Positions 767-32,471 of a stretch of DNA of 41,124 nt are shown here, piece after piece; within the stretch, counting starts at the first letter, position 1, and every line of letters begins with the position of its first letter. The notes under the pieces were generated by a model. It had not been told where the DNA came from and made no database searches. It worked only from the letters and a program-made list of their open reading frames with translations. Position numbers and translations under genes: made by a program. Source of the stretch: an uncultured Bacilli bacterium (GTDB lineage: Bacteria > Bacillota_I > Bacilli_A > RF39 > UBA660); the NCBI GenBank assembly GCA_947632455.1, contig CANRPK010000010.1:1-41124 (forward strand). The letters are read 5' to 3'.

Positions 767-775
767 ATATCTTTT
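743..775. terminator. Bidirectional terminator between convergent genes
   Basis: AAAAGATATTTGGG (744-757) and CCCTAAATATCTTTT (761-775) form a long stem with one bulged base and a tiny ATT loop, flanked by A and T runs. It overlaps the stop codons of both convergent genes, so it can end transcription in either direction. Confidence 0.8.
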
Positions 776-2042
776 ATTTAATACCACAAGTTCCAGGACT
801 ATATACACCTAATATAGTTAGAATAAATCTAATTATTATTGGTAATAAGAAGATAATAACCGCGATTATAAATCTTTTAATAGCTTTTTGGGTGCATTTT
901 TTTATTTCATCTTGATTATTAGATGCTATAGCTTTAGTAAAATCAATTATGGTTAAAACAAGTAATAAAACAATAGCAATATATTTCATAATATTAAAGG
1001 CAAATTGTAAATAATATGCTGGAGTACCATTTGTTTTAGGATTACCTAGAATACTATCACAATCATTAGCATTATAATCATTGGGATCTTGATAGCCACC
1101 AGTATTTGGGGATAAACTAGTTTCAGTACAAGCACTATAATTATCTGGTGAAGCACTATATATATAAAAAGCAGTTGTTTGTGCGACTTTGCGACATTCT
1201 AAATAAATATTATCAATAGTGGATAAATTATTATAAATTGTTTCATCTTGAACTTTAAAACCATAATTAGTAAAATTTACGCCACCCGTTGAAGTTTGAT
1301 AAACAATATTAGATAGATCAGAATTAAGAGATACTCCAAGATAATTACTACCGGTTGTCGTTTTACCTATTTCAAAATATACATTTTGTTTGCCATCAGG
1401 TAAAGGAACATTTTGTTTAGAATAATGATAACATTCACTTGCATCAGGTTTCTTACAAGTATTTTGGTCATTACCACCTATAATTGAAGTTGATGTAGGT
1501 CTAAAATTTATGATACCTCCTTCTGGTTGCATACCTTTAAAATATCTAAACCGAGTTATTATAGCTGGAAGATTACTATCATAATCATAAAATTCTTCAG
1601 TATAGGCATGTATCTCTGTAGGACATGTGCCATTTTCTTTATAGTAGTTATAAAAATCTTCGCCATTGAAATTTGATAATCTATATAAATATAATTTTTG
1701 AGCATCACGTTTTAATTCTTCATCGCCTAAAGTATATTTCTTATCATAAAATGTATTGTAGCCACGATTATTAATGCTATATTGTAAAAGAAAGCTATTA
1801 TCTGAGCCGTCTAAAATTCTAATATCTAACTCATTTATACCAGTCTTTTCTTTAATTGTATCATCGGCGTCAATATAATATTTAGGGCAAGCAATACTAG
1901 TATATTTACCTACAGTTCTAGTTGCATAATCTTTTGTATTTAAGGTATTTTTTTCTAATGAAAAAATATTTTCATCCATTGTATTTTTAGTAAAACCAGT
2001 ACATAACAATAATATTATGGGTATTATAAATAATTTCTTCAT
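774..2042 (-). CDS. Secreted ectodomain protein with C-terminal T4SS pilin-like domain (copy D)
   Basis: 422 residues. It starts with a signal peptide (MKKLFIIPIILLLCTGFT), followed by a large polar, cysteine-containing ectodomain of about 320 residues that I do not recognise. It ends in two hydrophobic helices near residues 350-372 and 395-418, joined by a basic loop (NNQDEIKKCTQKAIKR). This helix-loop-helix end with FTKAI resembles VirB2/TrbC-type pilins (Pfam T4SS_pilin). The last 95 residues are almost identical to the protein at 9022-9999, including 98 identical nucleotides at the 3' end, whereas the ectodomains differ. The predicted topology is ectodomain outside, anchored by the C-terminal hairpin. 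Whether it polymerises into a pilus or is only anchored is unknown. It ends at a bidirectional terminator. Confidence 0.75.
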   Translation of the reverse strand: MKKLFIIPIILLLCTGFTKNTMDENIFSLEKNTLNTKDYATRTVGKYTSIACPKYYIDADDTIKEKTGINELDIRILDGSDNSFLLQYSINNRGYNTFYDKKYTLGDEELKRDAQKLYLYRLSNFNGEDFYNYYKENGTCPTEIHAYTEEFYDYDSNLPAIITRFRYFKGMQPEGGIINFRPTSTSIIGGNDQNTCKKPDASECYHYSKQNVPLPDGKQNVYFEIGKTTTGSNYLGVSLNSDLSNIVYQTSTGGVNFTNYGFKVQDETIYNNLSTIDNIYLECRKVAQTTAFYIYSASPDNYSACTETSLSPNTGGYQDPNDYNANDCDSILGNPKTNGTPAYYLQFAFNIMKYIAIVLLLVLTIIDFTKAIASNNQDEIKKCTQKAIKRFIIAVIIFLLPIIIRFILTILGVYSPGTCGIK

Positions 2043-2126
2043 TAAAATACCTACCTTCTTATAAAAAGAATACCTTTTTTTAAAATTAATGTCAAGGTAT
2101 TATAAAATATTATTCTACTCTTCTAT

Positions 2127-3335
2127 CTATTTTTTTAGTAATACGCAAAAACTTTCTAAATGGTATGTATAACTAAACATATCTAAAATCTTATATTCTG
2201 TTATGGTATAATTATCTTCTAATAATTTTAAATCTCTTATTAATGTATTTATATCACATGATATATAAATTATTTTATTTGGTAATTTATTTTTTATAAA
2301 GTTTAAAGTATTTTTATCTAAGCCTTTTCTTGGGGGATCAACAATTAATGTATCAAAAGAAATATTAATTTTATTTACTAATTTTGATGCATCACCTAAG
2401 AAAAATTTAATGTTATTTTGGTTATTTATTTTAGCATTAAATATGCCATTTAAAACAGCATTTTTGATTATTTCAATACTATAGACATATGATGCTTTAG
2501 TACTTGCAATAAGACTTAAAGTACCTACCCCACTATATAAATCTAATACTTTAGATGAGGGAGTAATATTGTCTTTAATTAGTTTAAATAATTCTTCGGT
2601 AATATAATTATTTACTTGAAAAAAAGAATCATAACTTACTTTAAATAAAAAATTATAGAGACGTTCATAATAAAAATTATTGCCATATATTGTTTTATTA
2701 TTATATACTATACCAATTAATTTTATTTTAGATTTTAACGCTATTATATCTATATCATAATTAGGATTAGAAGATTCTATAATTAGTAATACTTCATTAT
2801 TTTTATTAGTTCTAATAGTTAAAAAGCCATCTTGAAGATTTAGATACTTATAATTTTTTATGGTTTCATTAATAGTTTTATTAGCTATCATGCATTCTTT
2901 AATGGCAATTAATTTATGAGTTTTTTCTTCATAAAAGCCTATTTTACCATCAACTATTTTTAAACTTATTTTATTGCGATAATTAAAATTTTGTTTATTT
3001 TCTACGATAGAAATATTATTTACTTCTAATTTATTTTTTTGAAATAATGATTGAACTTTATTTTTCTTAAAAGTTAAAGTGTCTTCATAATTATAAAATA
3101 AAAGTTGACAGCCTCCACATTCATTAAAGTAAGGACATGGACTATTTTGGCGATGAATGCTTCTTTTTTGATAATTTAATACTTCAGCTTCACTATAATT
3201 CTTTTTAGATTTGATTATTTTTATATCGACTATTTCTTCAGGTAAAGCGTTTTTAATAAAAATAACTTTATTATCTATATGAGCAATACCACGGCCAAAA
3301 CTATCTAAAGATTCAATTAAAATATTTTGATACAT
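2127..3335 (-). CDS. 23S rRNA (uracil-5)-methyltransferase, RlmD/TrmA family
   Basis: 402 residues. SAM-dependent m5U methyltransferase acting on rRNA or tRNA in the cytoplasm. An N-terminal TRAM-like segment is followed by the iron-sulfur ligands (CPYFNECGGCQLL) near residue 70. The C-terminal Rossmann domain has VLDLYSGVGTLSL for SAM binding, then VDPPRKGLD and ISCDINTLIRDL, the latter carrying the catalytic cysteine. I chose the ATG at 3335 because AGGTGA lies upstream of it. A GTG nine bases further upstream is part of that SD. The exact target (U747 or U1939 type) cannot be told from the sequence. This housekeeping-type gene sits inside the pilin-like region, flanked by a pseudogene scrap and the copy D surface protein. 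Confidence 0.9.
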   Translation of the reverse strand: MYQNILIESLDSFGRGIAHIDNKVIFIKNALPEEIVDIKIIKSKKNYSEAEVLNYQKRSIHRQNSPCPYFNECGGCQLLFYNYEDTLTFKKNKVQSLFQKNKLEVNNISIVENKQNFNYRNKISLKIVDGKIGFYEEKTHKLIAIKECMIANKTINETIKNYKYLNLQDGFLTIRTNKNNEVLLIIESSNPNYDIDIIALKSKIKLIGIVYNNKTIYGNNFYYERLYNFLFKVSYDSFFQVNNYITEELFKLIKDNITPSSKVLDLYSGVGTLSLIASTKASYVYSIEIIKNAVLNGIFNAKINNQNNIKFFLGDASKLVNKINISFDTLIVDPPRKGLDKNTLNFIKNKLPNKIIYISCDINTLIRDLKLLEDNYTITEYKILDMFSYTYHLESFCVLLKK

Positions 3336-3698
3336 ATTATTCACCTACTTCAATGAATTTATTTAAAAAAAGATGTTGTAGTAGTCTTAAAAGCTTGTTT
3401 TAAAACATCAGCATCATTTATTTAAGTTTTTACTTAGGATTAATCTTGTAACCAATTCTACTATATTTAGTCTTAACCAAATATCTTGAGTTATAAATGG
3501 TTATTGGACGCACACCTATAGTGTCTCTCACGTTCGCACCGTCCAAGTAGCCATCATCACGCACACGGAACACGGCTGCCCAGCCTTCGGGATTATAGTG
3601 ATACGAAAAATGTAACTACTCGTTTTAGATTAACCCTTTAAATTATATCATACATTATTTTTTTATTAAATATAGTAAAATGATGTTGCTTTTCAACA
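3336..3698. other. 363-bp gap between surface operon and methyltransferase gene
   Basis: Apart from the pseudogene remnant at 3430-3615 and the terminator arm starting at 3677, this stretch is AT-rich and shows no intact gene. The part at 3336-3429 probably contains the promoter of the minus-strand methyltransferase gene, but I could not single out a convincing -35/-10 pair. Confidence 0.6.
3430..3615 (-). pseudogene. GC-rich remnant of a surface-protein C-terminus
   Basis: The minus strand holds an open stretch of 61 codons, from after an in-frame TAG at 3616-3618 to TAA at 3430-3432, without a start codon. The translation includes NPEGWAAVFRVRDDGYLDG followed by a GVRP motif. Secreted and phage-borne proteins of gut bacteria often end with such GVRP segments, so this reads as the C-terminal scrap of a larger gene. 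Roughly 3510-3595 is clearly GC-rich against surroundings that are mostly A/T, which suggests import or a different mutational history. The last 20 codons have the local AT bias. No homologous intact gene is present in the window. Confidence 0.6.
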
Positions 3699-3705
3699 TC
3701 ATTTT
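3677..3705 (-). terminator. Terminator of the TrbL-like operon
   Basis: AAAATGATGTTG (3677-3688) and CAACATCATTTT (3694-3705) form a perfect 12-bp stem with a CTTTT loop. The TGA stop of the upstream minus-strand gene (3699-3701) lies inside the stem. The T-run on the minus strand side is short, so termination strength is uncertain. Confidence 0.7.
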
Positions 3706-4376
3706 CTGCTTTGATATATTTCTCGCGCTTTTATAAAGGATAATTCAGTTTTTATGTTAATAGCGAGTGTACGTAATTTTTCAACATATGCTAAAGCTTG
3801 AGGATCATGAGCTTGTAATTTTTGACCATTTTCTCCTAAAACTTCATTAATGTTTATGGGTTCACCAATTAAATCTTTTAAATCAGCATATTTTTTTTGC
3901 AATGAATTAATAACCATTGCTTCAGTATACACTAATAAAGCATTATCAACATAAGCATTTTCTTTAGCAATAGTAATTAACATATTTAAATTATTTATGG
4001 TTTTTAAGCATTCCATAAGAATATTTAAATTCTGAGGAGTAACTTTTAAATCTAAATCAGTTATTTCTTTTTTGATGGCTAATCTAAATGAATTATTTGC
4101 ATCTATTCCTTTTTTTTGATATTCGGAGAATATTTTATTAATTCGACCAAATTTATAAGCATCAACTAATTGAGCGTTTCCACCTAAATTATAGACTTTA
4201 AATTCTTCTTGGACCATATCGCATATAAATTTAGATTGTTCAGGACTATCATTCCATATTTGTTCTATCTTATCTAAGCTGGGAGTTAATTGTTCCATGG
4301 CTTCTTTTTTACGGGCATTTAACCCATCAACATCATAAGCCCAATCATGTATACCTCTTTTTATCTTATCAAACAT
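3699..4376 (-). CDS. Soluble helical partner of the TrbL-like protein, function unknown
   Basis: 225 residues without signal peptide or membrane segment, rich in charged residues and predicted helical throughout. I do not recognise a domain. Its start codon overlaps the stop of the TrbL/VirB6-like gene by one base (TAATG arrangement on the minus strand), so the two are translationally coupled and probably work together at the inner face of the membrane. The N-terminus (MFDKIKRGIHDWAYDVDGLNARK) is amphipathic and could touch the membrane or the channel protein's cytoplasmic tail. The gene ends in TGA within a terminator hairpin, which argues for the standard genetic code. Confidence 0.7.
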   Translation of the reverse strand: MFDKIKRGIHDWAYDVDGLNARKKEAMEQLTPSLDKIEQIWNDSPEQSKFICDMVQEEFKVYNLGGNAQLVDAYKFGRINKIFSEYQKKGIDANNSFRLAIKKEITDLDLKVTPQNLNILMECLKTINNLNMLITIAKENAYVDNALLVYTEAMVINSLQKKYADLKDLIGEPININEVLGENGQKLQAHDPQALAYVEKLRTLAINIKTELSFIKAREIYQSRK

Positions 4377-6598
4377 TATTTTTTATCCTCTTTCTTAGCA
4401 TATCTACTACGTTCAATTTCACGACCAGAAATAGCTGATAATTCAATTTTAGCATTAGAGTCTAACTTATCTAGAGCATCAAGGTAATCTAATGCGGATT
4501 GTTCACCATTTTTTAGGTCTGCTACAAATTGATTATAAACATTTCTATCTGCTAAATTTTGATATTTTTTAATGCTTGCTTTAACTTCAGGACTTATATC
4601 TTTTAAATTATCAATATTTAAGAAATCAATTTCACCAAATTTAGCTTGAGTTTGTTGTAATTCAAGAACTTTACCAGCAATAGCTGCGGCTTTGCCAGAT
4701 CTTTGAATAGCTTTTGCTTGACTATCTACTAAATCTTTTGCTATAGCTTCTTTTTCTTGAGCTTGTGCTAAGCCAGTCGCATAATCTGTATTATATCTGT
4801 TTCTAAAAGCGTCTTCGGCTTGTTTAGTAGCGGCTGTTTCATTAGCTCCGGCTGCAATAGCTGCCATTTTAGTTTTAGCATAGAAATCTTCCATAGCTTG
4901 TCTAGCCGCAGAAGCATTACTAGCCTCTTCTTTAGCTTTAATATATCCAGGATCTTTCTTCCACAAATCTTGCATTGTGCCAACTAATGAGCCAATAGCA
5001 TTGATAGCTTCTTTTGTTCTTGCATCGGCCGTTGGATCTGAACCGGATGCTCCAGCCCATTCACGAACTCCTTGTTCCATTTTATTAAATCTGTATCCGG
5101 CAAGTTTATTACTTCTAGCTCTGTAATGTAGTTCGCTTTCACCTTCTTGTCTTTCAAAAGTTTGCTCATTATATGCGGCTTTTTCTCTTTTTCGAGTTTC
5201 TTTATCAGCCTGACGTTGTCTTTGTCTATTAATTACATCTTCAACAGATGACCTTGTATTTGATTTTATATCTTTAACGCCTTTATATTCTTTATTAGCA
5301 GCATTGTACGCACTTTTCCCTCCACCTAAGATAGCATTTTTAACACGATTAAATCCTGTCTTATAGTTTTTATCAGATTCCGGAGTTTGATTAAAGGCTC
5401 TAACTGCTCCAGTTGTAAGAGCTCCCATAGCTCCTAAACTAAGCATTGCACTTCCTAGAACATTATATTTACCACCATCTAGGCCAGTTATTTCTTTAAG
5501 TAAAGCGGGGGCTTGTTTAATAAACATAATTATTCCGACTATAATAAACATCTGAGCAAATAATCCAATAACAATACCACCATTTTCTCCACTTGATGAT
5601 ATAAAGGCTCCAAGGACGTTTACATTATTAAGAACTATCTTTATTAATAAAACGGAAAAATATAATATAGCTAACCTTATAAATACTTCAGCAAAAGTAG
5701 ACAATGTAGCTTTTATCCAATTACTAAAAATTTTATTACCCTGTTCATTTGGTAATATTCTACTTAATATTGGTAAAGGAGCCATTAATTCATAAACAGC
5801 TAATTTAATGGTTCTAATAGCTATATCAAAGCAATAAGAAATTAAAACAAATAATGTAAAAGCTCCAGCGACTGTGGAAATTATAAAATAATAAGTTAAA
5901 TCTTTATTTACTACATTAGATGCTAAATCAGTTATATAAAAGAGATTTCGATTTTTTATTATTTCCCAAAAATTCCGAAATGATTTATCTGTTTGGCCAT
6001 CTAAAGCGGCAGAGTCAATAGTTACACTTGAACAATCATACCCACGAGGATATTCCTCAGTAATAGCACCCTTATATTCACAATCATCATAATTTTCATG
6101 TAAAAATGCTTCTAAGACCCCTGTTGCCATGGTCATTCCACCTTGAGAAATTGTATCTTTTGAAGAATCACCTGTAGAACTGGTATCTCCTAAAATTATT
6201 TTGCCTAAAGTATTTGCTTCTAATAAAGAAGTTTGAAAAGCTCTAGCATAACTAAATATCATAGGTATTAAGGCAATTAATACAACGGATATTACAACAT
6301 CGCCAATAATCTTAATTGGGGATTTTTTACCTTTAAAAGCTTCATCGGGATTTATCATAGATTTTAATAAAGAATAAGCGACTAAAAACAAGACTACAAC
6401 ACCAATAATTATATATACACGTCCAACAAAAGCTGTAACTTCATCGCTATTATTTAAAATATCAACATTACATAATGTCATGATTATTTGATATACCCAA
6501 TTTATTAATGAATATACTAAAGCATCTATAAATAACAATATCCCTACGAAAAAGGTTGCTATTGTTTCAAGTATTTCTTGAACTAATCCTATTAGCAT
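4376..6598 (-). CDS. TrbL/VirB6-like polytopic membrane protein with long cytoplasmic tail
   Basis: 740 residues. The first about 410 contain roughly seven membrane segments, near residues 5-40, 57-82, 96-118, 238-262, 300-328, 345-368 and 385-410. A cysteine-bearing loop at about 120-235 is predicted to be outside. The stretch with VYELMAPLPILSRILP followed by FSNWIKATLSTFAEVFIRLA is typical of TrbL/VirB6 proteins of Gram-positive conjugation systems, which form the inner channel of type IV secretion. Residues 415-740 are hydrophilic, alanine- and lysine-rich and likely coiled coil, an unusually long tail for this family. It sits between a pilin-like gene (gap 31 bp) and a soluble partner (1-bp overlap). 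No VirB4/VirD4 ATPase, relaxase or peptidoglycan hydrolase is nearby, so this is an incomplete or dispersed system. Confidence 0.75.
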   Translation of the reverse strand: MLIGLVQEILETIATFFVGILLFIDALVYSLINWVYQIIMTLCNVDILNNSDEVTAFVGRVYIIIGVVVLFLVAYSLLKSMINPDEAFKGKKSPIKIIGDVVISVVLIALIPMIFSYARAFQTSLLEANTLGKIILGDTSSTGDSSKDTISQGGMTMATGVLEAFLHENYDDCEYKGAITEEYPRGYDCSSVTIDSAALDGQTDKSFRNFWEIIKNRNLFYITDLASNVVNKDLTYYFIISTVAGAFTLFVLISYCFDIAIRTIKLAVYELMAPLPILSRILPNEQGNKIFSNWIKATLSTFAEVFIRLAILYFSVLLIKIVLNNVNVLGAFISSSGENGGIVIGLFAQMFIIVGIIMFIKQAPALLKEITGLDGGKYNVLGSAMLSLGAMGALTTGAVRAFNQTPESDKNYKTGFNRVKNAILGGGKSAYNAANKEYKGVKDIKSNTRSSVEDVINRQRQRQADKETRKREKAAYNEQTFERQEGESELHYRARSNKLAGYRFNKMEQGVREWAGASGSDPTADARTKEAINAIGSLVGTMQDLWKKDPGYIKAKEEASNASAARQAMEDFYAKTKMAAIAAGANETAATKQAEDAFRNRYNTDYATGLAQAQEKEAIAKDLVDSQAKAIQRSGKAAAIAGKVLELQQTQAKFGEIDFLNIDNLKDISPEVKASIKKYQNLADRNVYNQFVADLKNGEQSALDYLDALDKLDSNAKIELSAISGREIERSRYAKKEDKK

Positions 6599-6629
6599 TA
6601 ACTACCATTCCTTTCTTTTTATTTAATTA

Positions 6630-7475
6630 TTAATCGTCTAAGATGGTACCACTACATTTGGTTGGATTTAACATACAGTAAGTACAATACCCAAATGAAC
6701 CATTTTGTTCATCATATACTTTTTCACCACCAATAAATTTTATAGCAAAGTTTAAGATGGTTGGTAATAAAAAGATAACAAAGCCAGCGATTACACGAAT
6801 AATCAAAGATTTGGCTGATTTTTTTATTTCATCATCTTTATTAGCAATGACTGCCTTGCCAAAATCAATACTACCTAAAACTATAATTATTATTGGAACT
6901 GCTATCTTTGCTACAAATATGGCCCACCCAATGCTACGGAAAGTGCCTTTTACTGAATTACGATTGCATAAATTTGAAGCTTCAGTATCAGGATTTTGAG
7001 TTTGAGGTAGATTTGGAGTACTTGGATCGCTTGGATTATTCGGTGTTGTGGGATTAGTTCCACCTGGGGTAGTAGGATCATCTAAATATTCATTATCAGA
7101 TTTGGAAACATTTAAATTAAAAGTATATGTTCCCTCTTCTGTATTAGCGTAACTGCCATTATTAGTTGGGGATATTTCCTTAATATATGGATTACTTGCT
7201 GCATCAAAGTGACCAAAAACATAAATTTTTTTAGTTCTAGTACAATCATATACTGAGCCATTTATATAATTATTTGGTTGCAATTTATTATTAACTATAC
7301 TGGAATTATTAAAAGTACATGTTACTTTAGAACTAGTTACTGTACATTCAATGGAATTTTTGCTTAAAAATGTCCCGTTTTCGTATACACAAGTTATTTG
7401 AGGTTCTGCGTACACTATATTGATTTTTAGGATATATAATATAATTAGGAATATAACATATTTTGTACTTCTCAT
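6630..7475 (-). CDS. Secreted Pro/Thr-linker protein with T4SS pilin-like domain (copy C)
   Basis: 281 residues. Signal peptide (YVIFLIILYILKINIVYA), a short beta-rich cysteine-containing ectodomain to about residue 130, a proline/threonine/asparagine-rich linker (NPTTPNNPSDPSTP) to about 165, then two hydrophobic helices around 180-205 and 222-245 with the loop NKDDEIKKSAKSL. The helix pair with IDFGKAV matches the VirB2/TrbC-like pilin hairpin. Unlike copies A, B and D it continues with a cysteine-rich tail (YCTYCMLNPTKC). I chose the ATG at 7475, since the ATG at 7487 forms part of the GGAGGAG SD. It is the first gene of the operon with the TrbL-like protein, which supports a joint role. 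Confidence 0.75.
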   Translation of the reverse strand: MRSTKYVIFLIILYILKINIVYAEPQITCVYENGTFLSKNSIECTVTSSKVTCTFNNSSIVNNKLQPNNYINGSVYDCTRTKKIYVFGHFDAASNPYIKEISPTNNGSYANTEEGTYTFNLNVSKSDNEYLDDPTTPGGTNPTTPNNPSDPSTPNLPQTQNPDTEASNLCNRNSVKGTFRSIGWAIFVAKIAVPIIIIVLGSIDFGKAVIANKDDEIKKSAKSLIIRVIAGFVIFLLPTILNFAIKFIGGEKVYDEQNGSFGYCTYCMLNPTKCSGTILDD

Positions 7476-7536
7476 AAACTCCTCCATATAAAAATATTTT
7501 TAAAATTTACCATAATAAATATAACATACTTTACAT

Positions 7537-7567
7537 AAAAAAACTAGTTTTTATTACTAAAAACTAA
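7537..7567 (-). terminator. Terminator of the copy B surface gene
   Basis: On the minus strand TTAGTTTTTA and TAAAAACTAG form a 10-bp stem (forward 7544-7553 and 7558-7567) with a four-base loop, followed by a run of seven T. Confidence 0.75.
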
Positions 7568-7571
7568 TTAT

Positions 7572-8951
7572 TTATTTAATTCCACATGTTCCAGCACTAT
7601 ATACACCTAATATGGTTAGTATGAATTTAATTATTATTGGTAATAAAAATATAATAGCTGCAATTATAAATCTTTTAATGGCTTTTTGAGTAGCTTTCTT
7701 AAAATCATCTTTATTGCTAGATACAGCTTTAGTAAAATCAACTATGGTTAAAACAAAAAGTAAAATTATAGCAATATATTTTATGGCGTTAAAAGCAAAT
7801 TGTAAATAGTGAGCTGGAGTACCATTTGTTTCAGGATTACCTAAAATACCATCACAACTATCAGCTTTATAATCTTTATCATCTTTATATCCTCCAACAT
7901 TATCTTTAAGAGGATCTTTAGGTATATCTTCAGGACAAGCAGTTGCTGAAGTAGATATATTATAATATGAAGCGCCGGCAGCACAGCCATTATTTAAATT
8001 AACTGTAGCTGGACAGTTTCCATCTTCAGGAAAATAATTTGCAACTTCTTCTGGTGTTAGCATAAAACTAAATTTATTATATTGTTCATTTACTTCAGAA
8101 TTGGCTGCACCTTCAGCTATTTCTAAAATATTATCTTTTAAACTCGAAATGGTACCATCAGTACTATGAGAATGATCTCCATGAATATATTTTATATAAA
8201 GTTTTTTCTCTCCACTTGCCATTTTTTTAAATTCAAAACTTAGCTGGCGGTTATTGTCAAAAGCAATATTTTCGTAAGTACAACTACTAGCTACCTTGCT
8301 TTCATTATTTCCTTCAGTTACGCCGGGAGTTGATGGAGTTTCTGGTGTTTCAGGGGTTGTTGACGTCGATGGAGTTGATGGTGTTGTTGGAGGCACTTTT
8401 TTTACAAATGAAATAGATTTAGTAGCATGAACATTATCATAAGTAGTATTTGGAATATCCTTATATTCGATACTTGGACAGGTTTGGACTGTAGCTTGAT
8501 ATTTTAATATTTCAATTTGGTCATCATCATAAGCTCTATCTTCAATTATTGTAGAATCAGAGGCTCTTATTTTATATTCTTTTAAATCTGAGCGATAAAC
8601 AAATAAAGATAAATTACGCATATAATTTGGTTTATTGTAGCCTTCATTAAGGGGAATTTCTGTAACTATATTGCCATTATTTCCAGTTCCATCACGAAAT
8701 AAATCCATTGAATTATTATCACTAAATGCACCAAAAGGTGCTCTATTTACGGAATATCTTTTATAAGTGGTTGTATCAAATTGTTCATCATATGTAAAAG
8801 AAAATTTATAATATATATGATCTTCTCCCTCAGCAGTTAATTGAGTTCCTGTTGGTATCCAGTAAGTACATATTAATTCGGCTGCCTGCACAATATTTAA
8901 ATTAATAATCATAGTTAATAACACTAATGTTAAAGATAATATCCTTTTCAT
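7572..8951 (-). CDS. Secreted ectodomain protein with T4SS pilin-like domain (copy B)
   Basis: 459 residues. Signal peptide (MKRILSLTLVLLTMIINLNIVQA), an ectodomain in two parts separated by a Thr/Pro/Ser linker near residues 190-215 (PTTPSTPSTSTTPETPETP), and a C-terminal pilin-like hairpin near 387-455 ending in GTCGIK. The C-terminal approximately 95 residues are homologous to those of copies A and D, with DFTKAV and a basic loop, but more diverged at the DNA level. The ectodomain shares no obvious similarity with its neighbours. SD AGGAG precedes the ATG. Own terminator downstream, so probably transcribed alone. Confidence 0.75.
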   Translation of the reverse strand: MKRILSLTLVLLTMIINLNIVQAAELICTYWIPTGTQLTAEGEDHIYYKFSFTYDEQFDTTTYKRYSVNRAPFGAFSDNNSMDLFRDGTGNNGNIVTEIPLNEGYNKPNYMRNLSLFVYRSDLKEYKIRASDSTIIEDRAYDDDQIEILKYQATVQTCPSIEYKDIPNTTYDNVHATKSISFVKKVPPTTPSTPSTSTTPETPETPSTPGVTEGNNESKVASSCTYENIAFDNNRQLSFEFKKMASGEKKLYIKYIHGDHSHSTDGTISSLKDNILEIAEGAANSEVNEQYNKFSFMLTPEEVANYFPEDGNCPATVNLNNGCAAGASYYNISTSATACPEDIPKDPLKDNVGGYKDDKDYKADSCDGILGNPETNGTPAHYLQFAFNAIKYIAIILLFVLTIVDFTKAVSSNKDDFKKATQKAIKRFIIAAIIFLLPIIIKFILTILGVYSAGTCGIK

Positions 8952-9002
8952 TTTATTTTACTCTCCTATTATATTTTATTATAACAATATATCGACAAAA
9001 AA

Positions 9003-9022
9003 ACTAGTCTAATATGACTAGT
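9003..9022 (-). terminator. Terminator of the copy A surface gene
   Basis: ACTAGTC (9003-9009) and GACTAGT (9016-9022) form a 7-bp stem with a six-base loop. On the minus strand it is followed by TTTTTTT. It overlaps the stop codon of the gene. Confidence 0.75.
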
Positions 9023-9999
9023 TATTTAATACCACAAGTTCCAGGACTATATACACCTAATATAGTTAGAATAAATCTAATTATTATTGGTAATAAGAAG
9101 ATAATAACCGCGATTATAAGTCTTTTTAGAGCTTTTTGGGTACATTTTTTTATTTCATCTTGATTATTTGAGGCTATAGCTTTAGTAAAATCAACTATTG
9201 TTAAAACAAAAAGTAGGACAATAGCAATATATTTCATAACATTAAAGGCAAATTGTAAATAATATGCTGGAGTACCACTTGTTTTAGGATTACCTAGGAT
9301 ACTATCGCAATCATTGGCAGTATAATCTTTATCATCTTCATAACCCCCTGTATTATCATCTAAAGGATCATCAATATCATCATATGGATTACTGGAAATA
9401 TCAGAACGACTTATTTTGGTACAATTATTATTATCCCAACTAGGAGTTTTATAAATTATAGAACCTTGACAAATATAAACTTCTTCTAAACAAGTACCAG
9501 TTGTAGGAAAATCATTACTTATAGAATAACTTGTATCATTAGGACCTATAGTTCCATCAGTATAATAATTAATAATATATTTACTTGTTTGACCATAAGT
9601 ACAAGCATGATCGATAATTTTTTGGTGGTCTTCTTCACTAACGTTATTATCTATTTCTTGATCAACTAACTCTAAGGTTATAGAAGAAGTATTCTCTTCA
9701 AAAGAAAAGCGATAGTCATTTCTTCTACTTTCAGCATTTGGCTCTAGAGTATAATATATTTGTTCAGGACAATAATAATTAGCATTATCAGTTATAAAAA
9801 AGCTGGAAGATACTGGTCCAAAATCATAGATGACTGGATTTTGATCATTTTTTTGTTTAACTAAAGCCCCTTCTTCATCAATTCCAACTATAACAGAAAC
9901 ACTGGTTCCATATGTACAATAAACACTTTTTGCTAAAGATTGATTAGGCCAAAGAAAAAAAGTTAACGTTATAAATAATAAGTAAATTGTTTTTTTCAT
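9022..9999 (-). CDS. Secreted ectodomain protein with T4SS pilin-like domain (copy A)
   Basis: 325 residues. Signal peptide (TIYLLFITLTFFLWPNQSLA), a cysteine-containing ectodomain of about 200 residues, an acidic linker (DDIDDPLDDNTGGYEDDKD), then the conserved module starting DCDSILGNPK and the pilin-like helix pair near residues 253-275 and 298-321. Its last 98 coding bases are identical to those of copy D, although the genes lie 7 kb apart and their ectodomains are unrelated by eye. That pattern suggests recent gene conversion or cassette swapping. It is transcribed divergently from murC and has its own terminator. Confidence 0.75.
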   Translation of the reverse strand: MKKTIYLLFITLTFFLWPNQSLAKSVYCTYGTSVSVIVGIDEEGALVKQKNDQNPVIYDFGPVSSSFFITDNANYYCPEQIYYTLEPNAESRRNDYRFSFEENTSSITLELVDQEIDNNVSEEDHQKIIDHACTYGQTSKYIINYYTDGTIGPNDTSYSISNDFPTTGTCLEEVYICQGSIIYKTPSWDNNNCTKISRSDISSNPYDDIDDPLDDNTGGYEDDKDYTANDCDSILGNPKTSGTPAYYLQFAFNVMKYIAIVLLFVLTIVDFTKAIASNNQDEIKKCTQKALKRLIIAVIIFLLPIIIRFILTILGVYSPGTCGIK

Positions 10000-29650: not shown

Positions 29651-29667
29651 GACTATTTTAACTAGCC
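29651..29667 (-). terminator. Terminator of the 199-residue secreted protein gene
   Basis: Minus strand GGCTA and TAGTC pair (one G-T pair) around GTTAAAA, followed by TTTTTTT. The stop codon of the gene at 29658 lies in the loop. Confidence 0.55.
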
Positions 29668-30257
29668 TCACTATAAATAGATACTTGAGCATTAAAGGTA
29701 GAACCCATAATGTCTTGACAAGCATTACCATCACAAAGATCTTTATCAAACCAAATATATAATTTATGTGTAGCACTTTTATTACTATTAGTTAAAGTAC
29801 CTTCTGTAAGAAGATAAGAACCTGAGACAGTATTTTCTTTAGGTACTAAAGATGTTGGCATACTAACTGGTGTTTTATTAACTGGAGCACCAGCACTTCC
29901 ATCTATAGAAAAATATATATAGCCTAATTTAGCTAATAGCTTAGAAGAAGTTGTATTTAAAACATTTAAGACAACTTTATATTTGGTATCTAAAGCAGTT
30001 TCACATGAATTTGTTATGGTTATTTCATAAGGAGTATATTTTTTTTCATTTGTGGCATTTGCTTCAGTTGTTGGATAACCAGTATAATTTATATATGAAG
30101 CATCAGTACTAGTTAGATTAAAGCAGGCGGAATTTAGAACGTTTGGTGTTTCTTGTTTTCCACTAAAAGAAAGGTAAGCATATGTTACCCCAGCAGTGGC
30201 AATTATTACCATAATTATAGATAAAGAAAGTAATGTAATTGTTTTTTTATAATTCAA
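29658..30257 (-). CDS. Secreted TasA/camelysin-like protein, paralogue 1
   Basis: 199 residues, TTG start after GGTGA. N-terminal hydrophobic helix (ITLLSLSIIMVIIATAGVTYAYL) followed by SFSGKQETPN, then a beta-rich extracellular domain with conserved cysteines (NSACFNL, NSCETAL, CDGNACQDIMG). The helix-plus-AYLSFSG pattern recalls TasA/camelysin matrix proteins that need SipW, but no SipW-like peptidase is here and the resemblance is by pattern only. It shares the C-terminal CxxxxCQxIMGxTF element and the SYLL-T-GTL motif with the neighbour at 30350-30997. Confidence 0.6.
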   Translation of the reverse strand: MNYKKTITLLSLSIIMVIIATAGVTYAYLSFSGKQETPNVLNSACFNLTSTDASYINYTGYPTTEANATNEKKYTPYEITITNSCETALDTKYKVVLNVLNTTSSKLLAKLGYIYFSIDGSAGAPVNKTPVSMPTSLVPKENTVSGSYLLTEGTLTNSNKSATHKLYIWFDKDLCDGNACQDIMGSTFNAQVSIYSEAS

Positions 30258-30349
30258 AGGTATTCACCAACTTCTATATTATGATTATATATTATTTTTT
30301 ATTATTTGAAAATACTTCACAATAAATTTGATGTAAATTTAAGAATTTT

Positions 30350-30997
30350 TTAGCTATTTCTTTCAGAGGCTACCCCTTGAGATGTTATAACTAAAATTTT
30401 ACCCTCAAATGTTTTACCCATTATAGTACTTTGGCAATCATTGCCTTCACAAGCATTGGCTGGTATCCAAAGGCGAAGATTAAATGTTTTTTGGGCTCCG
30501 TGTTCAAGTGTGCCGCTTGTTAGTAAATAACTATTTTTGACATTATTTTTATATTCGCTTGGTAAGTAACTAGGTGTTGGATATTTACTTTCAGTTTTTA
30601 ATTCTTTATTTGGATTTTCATCTAATTTATAATATAAATACTCAGTTAAATCTCCTTTTGATGTATCAGATACTTCTTGTTTTAAAGTGTTTAAAACTAT
30701 TTGATAATTTATAGCCTCGTTAGAATTATCAGCGGTGCAAGTATTTTCAATAGTAAAGGAATATGGGGTTAGGCTGTCTACTTTGCTATCATCAATAGGA
30801 TAAGCAAATTTTCCATCAGTATTTAAAGCAATAACATTTTCATCAGTAAATTTAATTTGGAAACACGTTGATTTAAATTCGTTAGCGGCTTCTTGTTTTC
30901 CTTGGACTGAATAAAATGAATAACTTGTTCCAATAGTTAATGTTATTAATATCATTACAGTTAAAACTGCTAATGTAACTTTATACCCTTGTTTCAT
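30350..30997 (-). CDS. Secreted TasA/camelysin-like protein, paralogue 2
   Basis: 215 residues from the ATG at 30997 after AGGTGA; an upstream in-frame extension overlaps the 3' end of miaB and is unlikely. Hydrophobic N-terminus (VTLAVLTVMILITLTIGTSYSFYS), then VQGKQEAAN, and a beta-rich domain with ENTCTADNS, NSYLLTSGTLEHGAQKTFNLR, LWIPANACEGNDCQ and IMGKTFEGKI. It is clearly a paralogue of the protein at 29658-30257. Function unknown; a surface matrix or adhesin role is a guess. The two genes stand in tandem with a 92-base gap. Confidence 0.62.
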   Translation of the reverse strand: MKQGYKVTLAVLTVMILITLTIGTSYSFYSVQGKQEAANEFKSTCFQIKFTDENVIALNTDGKFAYPIDDSKVDSLTPYSFTIENTCTADNSNEAINYQIVLNTLKQEVSDTSKGDLTEYLYYKLDENPNKELKTESKYPTPSYLPSEYKNNVKNSYLLTSGTLEHGAQKTFNLRLWIPANACEGNDCQSTIMGKTFEGKILVITSQGVASERNS

Positions 30998-31055
30998 ACT
31001 ATCACCTATAATAAATATTATAAGATACTTTTTTAATTTTGAAAAGTGTTTTTTA

Positions 31056-32471
31056 TTAAATATTTGCAAATATTACTTTTTCACCATCAAGACTAAAACT
31101 TTTAGCACTGGTTATTTTTACATCAATGATCTTACCTATATCAGTAAGAGGTGCTTCAACATTAACTAATTTCATAGTTTCAGTGTAGCCACAAACTTTG
31201 TTTTCCCCTTTTTCGCTTGGGGCGGTAACTAAAATTTTAACAACTTTATTTAAGTATTCTTGATTATGTTTTAAACTATGTTCATTAATTATTTTATTTA
31301 ATTTTTGTAAACGTTTTTCTTTTTCTTCTAAAGTTATATTATCTTTTATTAAAGATGCTGGTGTACCCTCTCTTGGAGAATAGATAAAAGTATAAGCTCC
31401 ATCAAAGACACATTTATTTACAACATCTAAGGTTTCATTAAAATCTTCTTCTGTTTCATTTGGAAAACCAACAATAATATCGGTAGTAATACTACAGTTA
31501 GGAACAGCTTGTTTAATTTTTTGATATAAAGCTAAATATTCTTCTTTAGTATATCTGCGCCCCATAAGACGTAATATTTTCGTACTGCCACTTTGAAGTG
31601 GTAAATGGATATAAGGCATAATATTAGGATATTTAGCAATAGTATCAATCATTTTATCAGTAAAATCCCAAGGATGAGATGTAACAAAACGAATACGGGG
31701 TATACCAATTTTGGCTGTTTCTTCTAATAAAGTGGCAAAATCATAATCTTCATTTAAATCTTTACCATAAGCATTAACATTTTGCCCTAATAAAGTTACT
31801 TCTTTATAACCCTCTTCTTTTAAAGTAGTTATTTCTTTTAAAATATCGGCCATATGGCGACTTCTTTGTTTTCCTCTAGTATATGGAACAATACAATAAG
31901 TACAAAATTTATCACAGCCATACATGATATTTACCCAAGCACTATATTTAGAATCTCTTTTATATTCAATATTTTCATAGACATCCCCTTCTATAGAATA
32001 AACTTCTATATCTTGAGAGTTGCTAGCATTTATAATCATACTTCCTAATTCATTAATATTATGAGTACCAAATACAATATTAACAAAAGGATATTTTTCT
32101 TTTAAGAGATTAGCAACATTTTCTTGTTGAGGCATACAACCTCCTACACATACTAGTAAATCAGGTTTATTTCTTTTTAAATGTTTAACACGACCTAAAA
32201 AACCGAAAACTTTATCATGAGCATTTTCTCTAATAGCACATGTATTTAATACTATAATATCCGCGTCATTTAAAACAGCAGTTTCAGTAAAACCTAAATT
32301 AGATAATATACCTTTTATTTCTTCAGAATCATGAACATTCATTTGACAACCATAAGTTTTTAAATAAAACTTTTTACCATTAAACTTATTACTTTTTAAA
32401 TTTTTTGCTTGAAGATATTTAGGACTATTTTTAGTTCTTTGTTTTGCTTCTTGTAAATTTGGTAAATTCAT
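31056..32471 (-). CDS. miaB: tRNA-2-methylthio-N6-dimethylallyladenosine synthase
   Basis: 471 residues. Radical-SAM enzyme that adds a methylthio group to i6A37 made by MiaA. N-terminal UPF0004 domain with KTYGCQMNVHDSE, NTCAIRENA and VGGCMPQQE (three cysteine ligands), the radical-SAM CDKFCTYCIVPYTRGKQRSR near residue 190-209, LLGQNVNAYG, LPLQSGS, and a C-terminal TRAM domain (VCGYTETMKLVNVEAPLTDIGK). A polar N-terminal extension of about 35 residues precedes the first domain, as in other Gram-positive MiaB proteins. MiaA is encoded 2 kb downstream on the same strand. Confidence 0.95.
   Translation of the reverse strand: MNLPNLQEAKQRTKNSPKYLQAKNLKSNKFNGKKFYLKTYGCQMNVHDSEEIKGILSNLGFTETAVLNDADIIVLNTCAIRENAHDKVFGFLGRVKHLKRNKPDLLVCVGGCMPQQENVANLLKEKYPFVNIVFGTHNINELGSMIINASNSQDIEVYSIEGDVYENIEYKRDSKYSAWVNIMYGCDKFCTYCIVPYTRGKQRSRHMADILKEITTLKEEGYKEVTLLGQNVNAYGKDLNEDYDFATLLEETAKIGIPRIRFVTSHPWDFTDKMIDTIAKYPNIMPYIHLPLQSGSTKILRLMGRRYTKEEYLALYQKIKQAVPNCSITTDIIVGFPNETEEDFNETLDVVNKCVFDGAYTFIYSPREGTPASLIKDNITLEEKEKRLQKLNKIINEHSLKHNQEYLNKVVKILVTAPSEKGENKVCGYTETMKLVNVEAPLTDIGKIIDVKITSAKSFSLDGEKVIFANI

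Follow-up and report, generated by a model that had tools for sequence, protein, structure and literature searches.

Variable-ectodomain hairpin proteins as putative VirB2-like subunits of a chromosomal type IV secretion system in uncultured gut Bacilli

A 41,124-nucleotide stretch of an uncultured Bacilli bacterium of the RF39/UBA660 lineage (GenBank assembly GCA_947632455.1, contig CANRPK010000010.1; hereafter the window) encodes four hairpin proteins, P774, P6630, P7572 and P9022, each named by the start coordinate of its open reading frame (ORF). We consider it moderately probable that all four belong, as divergent subunits of the VirB2-like (T4SS_pilin) kind, to a family-core chromosomal type IV secretion system (T4SS), in which the ectodomain-bearing forms would serve as minor or tip subunits and a bare paralogue, A0, as the major one. 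The system is chromosomal, apparently inherited vertically, and core to a family of uncultured gut Bacilli. Pilin-like subunits with fast-changing outer domains suggest that variable contact domains are presented at the cell surface by a secretion pilus or pore. The evidence comprises the hairpins themselves, their homology across the family, gene linkage, the conservation pattern, a promoter motif and the rarity of MOB relaxases.

The four proteins, all encoded on the minus strand, are P9022 (9022..9999, 325 aa; hairpin 9061..9270), P7572 (7572..8951, 459 aa; hairpin 7611..7817, placed by alignment to P9022), P6630 (6630..7475; hairpin 6732..6959) and P774 (774..2042, 422 aa; hairpin 813..1022). 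P6630 probably starts at the ATG at 7475, giving 281 aa, because the first listed ATG (7487; 285 aa) sits on the GGAGG Shine-Dalgarno sequence. Each protein combines a signal-like N-terminal stretch with two strongly hydrophobic C-terminal helices identified by hydropathy; the signal of P9022, which lies under the hydropathy threshold, was read from the sequence, and that of P774 is the least canonical of the four. AlphaFold models reveal a helix hairpin at residues 177-252 of P6630 (285-aa numbering) and 244-313 of P9022, the latter composed of helices at 244-277 and 280-313. A two-helix transmembrane hairpin with a short charged loop, as defines the VirB2 and T4SS_pilin families (PF04956 and PF18895), is thus found by both AlphaFold and hydropathy. 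An initial sequence-only reading had proposed a signal peptide, a cysteine-bearing ectodomain and a C-terminal helix pair in all four proteins, and the ORFs, the hydropathy profiles and the models of P6630 and P9022 confirm this architecture.

The ectodomains of the window proteins, first estimated at 100-380 residues, span ~130-330 residues; relatives carry up to ~490 residues before the hairpin. In P6630, residues ~31-130 are modelled as a beta domain of mostly high confidence. The P9022 ectodomain yielded no reliable AlphaFold model (pLDDT mostly <50), and we therefore claim no fold for it. The ectodomain cysteines noted earlier are real. Of 96 ectodomains, 84 carry a C-x-Y motif immediately behind the signal, compared with a mean of 14 in shuffled sequences.

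Two hairpin types are present in the genus. Type A, represented by P6630, has a C-x-x-C after the second helix, and type B, represented by P9022, P7572 and P774, has one cysteine before the first helix and another just after the second. The two types are homologous (hhalign, 99.7%), and in a 150-row tree each forms a nearly pure group, with 2 changes compared with ~50 in shuffles. Conserved positions, KAV.SKDDEIKK..K.L..R and KA..S...DA.KKA.....KR, extend across the helices and the loop. The hairpins of the three window type-B proteins are 78-91% identical, and a VirB6-like gene neighbours the hairpin genes in 71 of 75 related loci, nearly all assigned to uncultured Bacilli, Mycoplasmatota or Tenericutes and one to Candidatus Caccenecus avistercoris, so the family proposed from the window alone exceeds chance.

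Profile searches partly support a T4SS pilin-type hairpin at the family level, counted at E ≤ 0.01. T4SS_pilin (PF18895) is the commonest Pfam match of type-A hairpins, reached by 34 of 59 relatives (best E 3e-6; the next family is reached by 7), and is matched by 15 of 55 type-B hairpins of relatives. In NCBIfam, the window hairpin proteins weakly match proteins of the Mbov_0395/0396 type from integrative and conjugative elements (ICEs), and the P9022 hairpin gives sub-threshold T4SS_pilin and Mbov_0396-type matches. The assignment was made by taking these family-level matches together with the genomic context, in which the window proteins are encoded with other T4SS genes. We class them as probably acting like T4SS pilin subunits and not as strict VirB2 members, because their 281-459 aa exceed the ~65-120 residues of a mature VirB2/T4SS_pilin protein and their single-protein scores stay below the cut-off; the A0 paralogue, at 123 aa, is near VirB2-type size. 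The VirB2/TrbC-like helix pair of the sequence-only reading stands at the level of the family and by its T4SS context, and no window protein taken singly reaches the Pfam cut-off. A match on contig C11 is a YidC/Oxa1-like protein by sequence and was set aside.

Several observations weigh against the proposed pilin-subunit model. Taken singly, the window proteins reach at most 13.6 bits with T4SS_pilin, below the 26.6-bit gathering score, and for P6630 alone Pfam does not list the family at all. Foldseek returned no match at E ≤ 0.001, and VIA returned generic two-helix hairpins only and no specific pilin. Resolution of the hairpin tree is poor, the window genome has A0 and VirB4 on contigs other than the window's, and ectodomains of up to ~490 residues would be difficult to accommodate on each subunit of a VirB2-type filament. 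DUF1980 (PF09323) fits the type-B hairpins at least as well as T4SS_pilin does (20 of 55, best E 1.2e-6), as expected if the hairpin were an unrelated membrane domain of the DUF1980/YcgQ type and no pilin. The homologous type A, however, prefers PF18895, the 19 families listed for type-A hairpins do not include PF09323, and all of the context is that of a T4SS; we regard an unrelated domain as scarcely probable.

The genomic context begins within the window. P9022, P7572 and P6630 form an operon-like run, with P9022 as its first gene, that continues into a 740-aa VirB6/TrbL-like multi-transmembrane protein with a long soluble C-terminus (4376..6598, minus strand) and a small soluble protein of 225 aa (3699..4376, minus strand); the gaps are 31-84 bases, with a one-base overlap at 4376. 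In some relatives, small genes placed like that of the 225-aa protein resemble the C-terminal region of the VirB6-like protein. P774 is not part of this operon: between the two stands an rRNA methyltransferase-like gene (2127-3344), which P774 follows downstream and which does not belong to the hairpin family. The interval 774-9999, first described as one family of surface proteins, thus holds the four members along with the rRNA methyltransferase-like, VirB6-like and small soluble protein genes. Of 25 genus genomes, 24 encode the VirB6-like protein, as a rule next to murC and preceded by one hairpin gene of each type. The window protein weakly matches NF045890 (pLS20_p028), and a relative (L050) matches NF045889 (Mbov_0396).

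In many relatives the operon continues into PrgI-like (~103 aa), VirB4-N (~190 aa) and VirB4-C (594 aa) genes, which in the window genome are located on contig C8 (L063). The window-genome VirB4-C matches the Mbov_0397 VirB4 family (E 6e-104), with Walker motifs intact in the translation as judged by eye, and a 182-aa gene matches the N-terminal part. The PrgI assignment rests on sub-threshold profile matches. Of the 36 genus genomes, 35 carry VirB4. In a class-wide sample it is encoded by 34 of 38 genomes of the same family (64-100% identity), and the full-length relatives found elsewhere do not exceed 34%. A VirD4-like coupling protein likewise occurs in 35 of 36 genus genomes; its core copy, 725-831 aa in the loci read, is flanked by uppS and a small membrane gene on one side and a rhodanese-like gene on the other, and the window-genome copy matches PF02534 (E 1.2e-54). 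A VirB1-like protein with M23 and phage-lysozyme domains occurs in the genus and follows VirB4 in L142. VirB4, VirD4, VirB3/PrgI, VirB6 and a VirB1-like protein, the part list of a monoderm T4SS of MPF-FATA type, are therefore all represented, PrgI at sub-threshold level and VirB6 weakly. No VirB8-like protein was noticed at the locus, where no dedicated search for one was made.

These same parts would be expected if the hairpin proteins were mating-contact factors of a conjugative integrative element. All genomes compared are metagenome assemblies or fragmented drafts, so that apparent absences, here of relaxases and below of Flp genes, may be assembly gaps. The MOB relaxase family PF03432, the one relaxase family searched, occurs in only 6 of 36 genus genomes and never on a contig of the core operon; in five of the six its contig also bears an ICE-type VirD4 match. 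In the majority of the genus genomes read, the core T4SS genes have housekeeping neighbours such as murC/dus and uppS. Because the relaxase is rare, we rate conjugation as very improbable.

Several further genes surround these loci. The window genome carries a separate ICE-like element (L064 and L065, contigs C17 and C63) with a relaxase (C17), VirD4, a fused VirB4 and a small TrbC/VirB2-type pilin (L064:14789-15145), whose comparison with the hairpins yielded no usable alignment. Directly behind VirB4-C, the window genome encodes a 201-aa collagen-repeat protein (L063:8788-9393, contig C8). A stand-alone, full-length type II/IV secretion ATPase of 401 aa (L063:13025-14230; also L051, L054 and L085) adjoins the PrgI-VirB4 genes on the opposite strand in the window genome and in L085. 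Large variable secreted proteins, 424-671 aa when complete, occur near VirD4/VirB4 in L063, L085, L088, L089, L091 and L092, sometimes in tandem; they share a motif like YWTMSP...RPVINLK and may be surface proteins or substrates.

The bare pilin A0, a 123-aa protein encoded on contig C26 of the window genome, is kept in 33 of 36 genus genomes at 55-79% identity and ~120-150 aa. A Tad operon (RcpC-TadA-TadB-TadC) is present in all 10 further genomes mapped, with A0 directly after TadC in 9, and in G009 A0 is followed immediately by PrgI-VirB4N-VirB4C. A0 has its own promoter, TTGACA-N17-TANAAT. Of the 15 genomes compared, 13 agree with the consensus at 11 of 12 bases and the other two at 10 of 12; only 5 of 103 control genes reach the 11/12 level. 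Being conserved, short and driven by a strong private promoter, A0 fits an abundant subunit and is, on this sequence evidence, probably the major one. In the mapped genus genomes, the Tad operon opens with a Cys-rich secreted protein of ~1230-1530 aa that has no Pfam match (L043:4220-8125, contig C26; also L186-L195).

Sister genera offer a broader view of this linkage. Several of their loci read TadB-TadC-Flp-Flp-TadE-like-TadE-like-CpaE-like-small type-A pilin-type B-VirB6-PrgI-VirB4N-VirB4C, where the Flp, TadE and CpaE labels were read from the sequence and the three proteins tested gave no Pfam match. The type-A pilin of these genera is often only 103-150 aa long and has next to no sequence ahead of its hairpin; bare forms of type B occur as well. 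The Tad (type IVc) pilus thus provides an RcpC-TadA-TadB-TadC operon ahead of a bare pilin, with Flp- and TadE-like genes in the sister genera, and differs in the window's genus, where TadC is followed by the VirB2-like pilin and the search for an Flp gene in that position found none. A bolder reading, less likely than not, is a hybrid machine in which the Tad platform and a relaxase-less T4SS share the VirB2-type A0. Paralogues with swappable, fast-evolving ectodomains would then decorate or cap the filament and, much as receptor-binding proteins do for phages, give the T4SS a targeting head that can vary.

VirB2-type pili offer too little surface per subunit for domains of 150-330 residues on every one, and a minor or tip role is for this reason likelier than a fully decorated homopolymer. 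Alternatively, the two types might sit on VirB6 at the wall as a short VirB5/VirB2-like cap, with no extended filament. That monoderm T4SSs usually lack a VirB2 pilus (PMC12102498, PMC12857230) agrees with such a module, as does the very constant position of type B directly before VirB6; the bare, promoter-driven A0 looks instead like an abundant subunit, and we find a channel or tip module of this kind quite improbable.

The hairpins and ectodomains of the window proteins differ sharply in conservation. Between P774 and P9022, hairpin identity is 91-94% (86-91% at third codon positions) and the final 80 bases of the two genes are the same, whereas their ectodomains share only 26-31% identity, with third positions near 50%. 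Co-resident type-B pairs in L097, L110, L168, L169 and L170 repeat the contrast (hairpins 77-93%, ectodomains 19-30% identical); in L114, where one member of the pair is bare, the hairpins are less alike (65%). No window hairpin exceeds 71% identity to those of other genomes. This pattern could have arisen by a recent duplication followed by rapid change of the ectodomains, or by gene conversion acting on the hairpin; both would fit hairpins that have to pack together while their ectodomains vary. Switches between bare and ectodomain-bearing forms number at least 8 for type A and at least 12 for type B on the poorly resolved hairpin tree. Type-A hairpins with an alpha/beta hydrolase fused behind them occur on the other side of murC (L055:11527-12771 and L059:4861-6150), and in L116, whose record overlaps the G004 region of L059, the hydrolase-fused copy and the operon pilin share a hairpin that is 98% identical.

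The sequence-only reading, which did not cover the surrounding T4SS and from which A0, encoded elsewhere in the genome, was hidden, had left a choice between pilus subunits that display adhesins and re-use of the pilin hairpin as an anchor. Were the hairpin a pilin-derived duplicate that only tethers variable surface antigens or adhesins, with no filament or channel, one would expect large and highly variable ectodomains, near-identical anchors beside divergent ectodomains as in antigen-variation families, a member such as P774 outside the operon, and a type-A form with a hydrolase behind the hairpin, all of which are found. The tight linkage to the VirB6-like gene argues otherwise, as do the recurrence of both types beside most VirB6-like genes and the loop and helix residues (K, D-D, K-K, R, F-P), conserved in bare and ectodomain forms alike beyond what a plain anchor needs. 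The T4SS linkage and the conserved loop residues appear to favour an apparatus subunit, and we hold anchor re-use to be unlikely; adhesion and filament formation, which the first alternative includes, are putative.

In the model that we infer, co-assembly, filament formation, display, adhesion and translocation would be linked as follows. Once the signal peptide is cleaved, the ectodomain would lie outside the membrane, the two helices would form the pilin hairpin and the short, positively charged loop would remain inside. A0 would build the body of a short pilus, or line a pore, on a VirB6 platform, and type-A and type-B proteins would co-insert through the same conserved hairpin, so that the ectodomains would decorate the outer face or the tip. 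The split VirB4 and VirD4 would power assembly and transport, the VirB1-like hydrolase would open the wall, and, ahead of any cargo transfer, the fast-changing domains would identify a partner cell or surface. Possible cargoes are protein effectors, exported DNA or DNA taken up. A competence role remains a candidate for the system: comEC is above cut-off in 31 of 36 genus genomes and a prepilin peptidase in 106 of 117 family genomes, neither of them seen linked to the hairpin locus.

A close parallel is the T4SS of Patescibacteria/Saccharibacteria (PMC12102498; for Southlakia epibionticum, reviewed in PMC12857230). Both systems are chromosomal and monoderm, with a separate VirB4-N (TrsD-like) and VirB4, PrgI/VirB3, VirB6, a distant type IV coupling protein, arrays of divergent VirB2-like pilins, mostly no relaxase, and a peptidase and lysozyme beside VirB4. 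The split VirB4, pilin array, usual lack of a relaxase and distant coupling protein that mark the Patescibacteria type in PMC12102498 are all found here. The present system differs in its host of class Bacilli, its large variable pilin ectodomains, its constant A/B types and pairing, and a bare pilin embedded in the Tad operon; the available parts of PMC12102498 report no large pilin ectodomains for Patescibacteria T4SSs.

Other systems share individual features. Among the Mycoplasma ICE transfer proteins Mbov_0395/0396/0397 (NF045849, NF045889, NF045975), VirB4 is closest to Mbov_0397, and the VirB6-like protein and the hairpins weakly match Mbov_0396/0395; unlike those ICEs, the present locus has no mobile element seen around it and no adjacent relaxase, its VirB4 is divided among PrgI-like, N and C genes, and its pilins bear ectodomains. 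VirB2/TrbC and T4SS_pilin proteins share the signal peptide, the two-helix hairpin, the short charged loop and the VirB4/VirB6 linkage; the window proteins differ from them by the 130-330 residue ectodomain ahead of the hairpin and by the sub-threshold single-protein scores noted above. Bartonella and Anaplasma have VirB2 variants in tandem (PMC12102498), likewise multiplied and diversified pilins proposed to vary surface contacts, but there the variation lies in the pilin itself, and here in an added ectodomain on a conserved hairpin.

The nomenclature review PMC12857230 treats Patescibacteria as the one exception to the absence of VirB2 from Gram-positive T4SSs. If our reading is correct, gut Bacilli would hold a second, family-wide, pilin-bearing chromosomal T4SS that lacks a relaxase, and such systems would not be peculiar to Patescibacteria (PMC12857230, PMC12102498); the gut Bacilli case would also tie this kind of T4SS to a Tad operon. 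The modular design, with a constant hairpin, a hypervariable ectodomain and a bare promoter-driven paralogue, would make target-cell choice testable. If the family is the genome-reduced, uncultured RF39/UBA660 lineage, as the relative Candidatus Caccenecus avistercoris suggests, the system would point to a contact-dependent life; according to PMC13155120, RF39 genomes do not encode the de novo synthesis of nucleic acids. A search of the literature on RF39 and secretion systems found nothing relevant.

Elsewhere in the window, two adjacent and related secreted proteins of 199 and 239 aa (29658-31069) have a TasA/camelysin-like look, and an IS110-like transposase, identified by eye, lies at the contig end (39912-41102).

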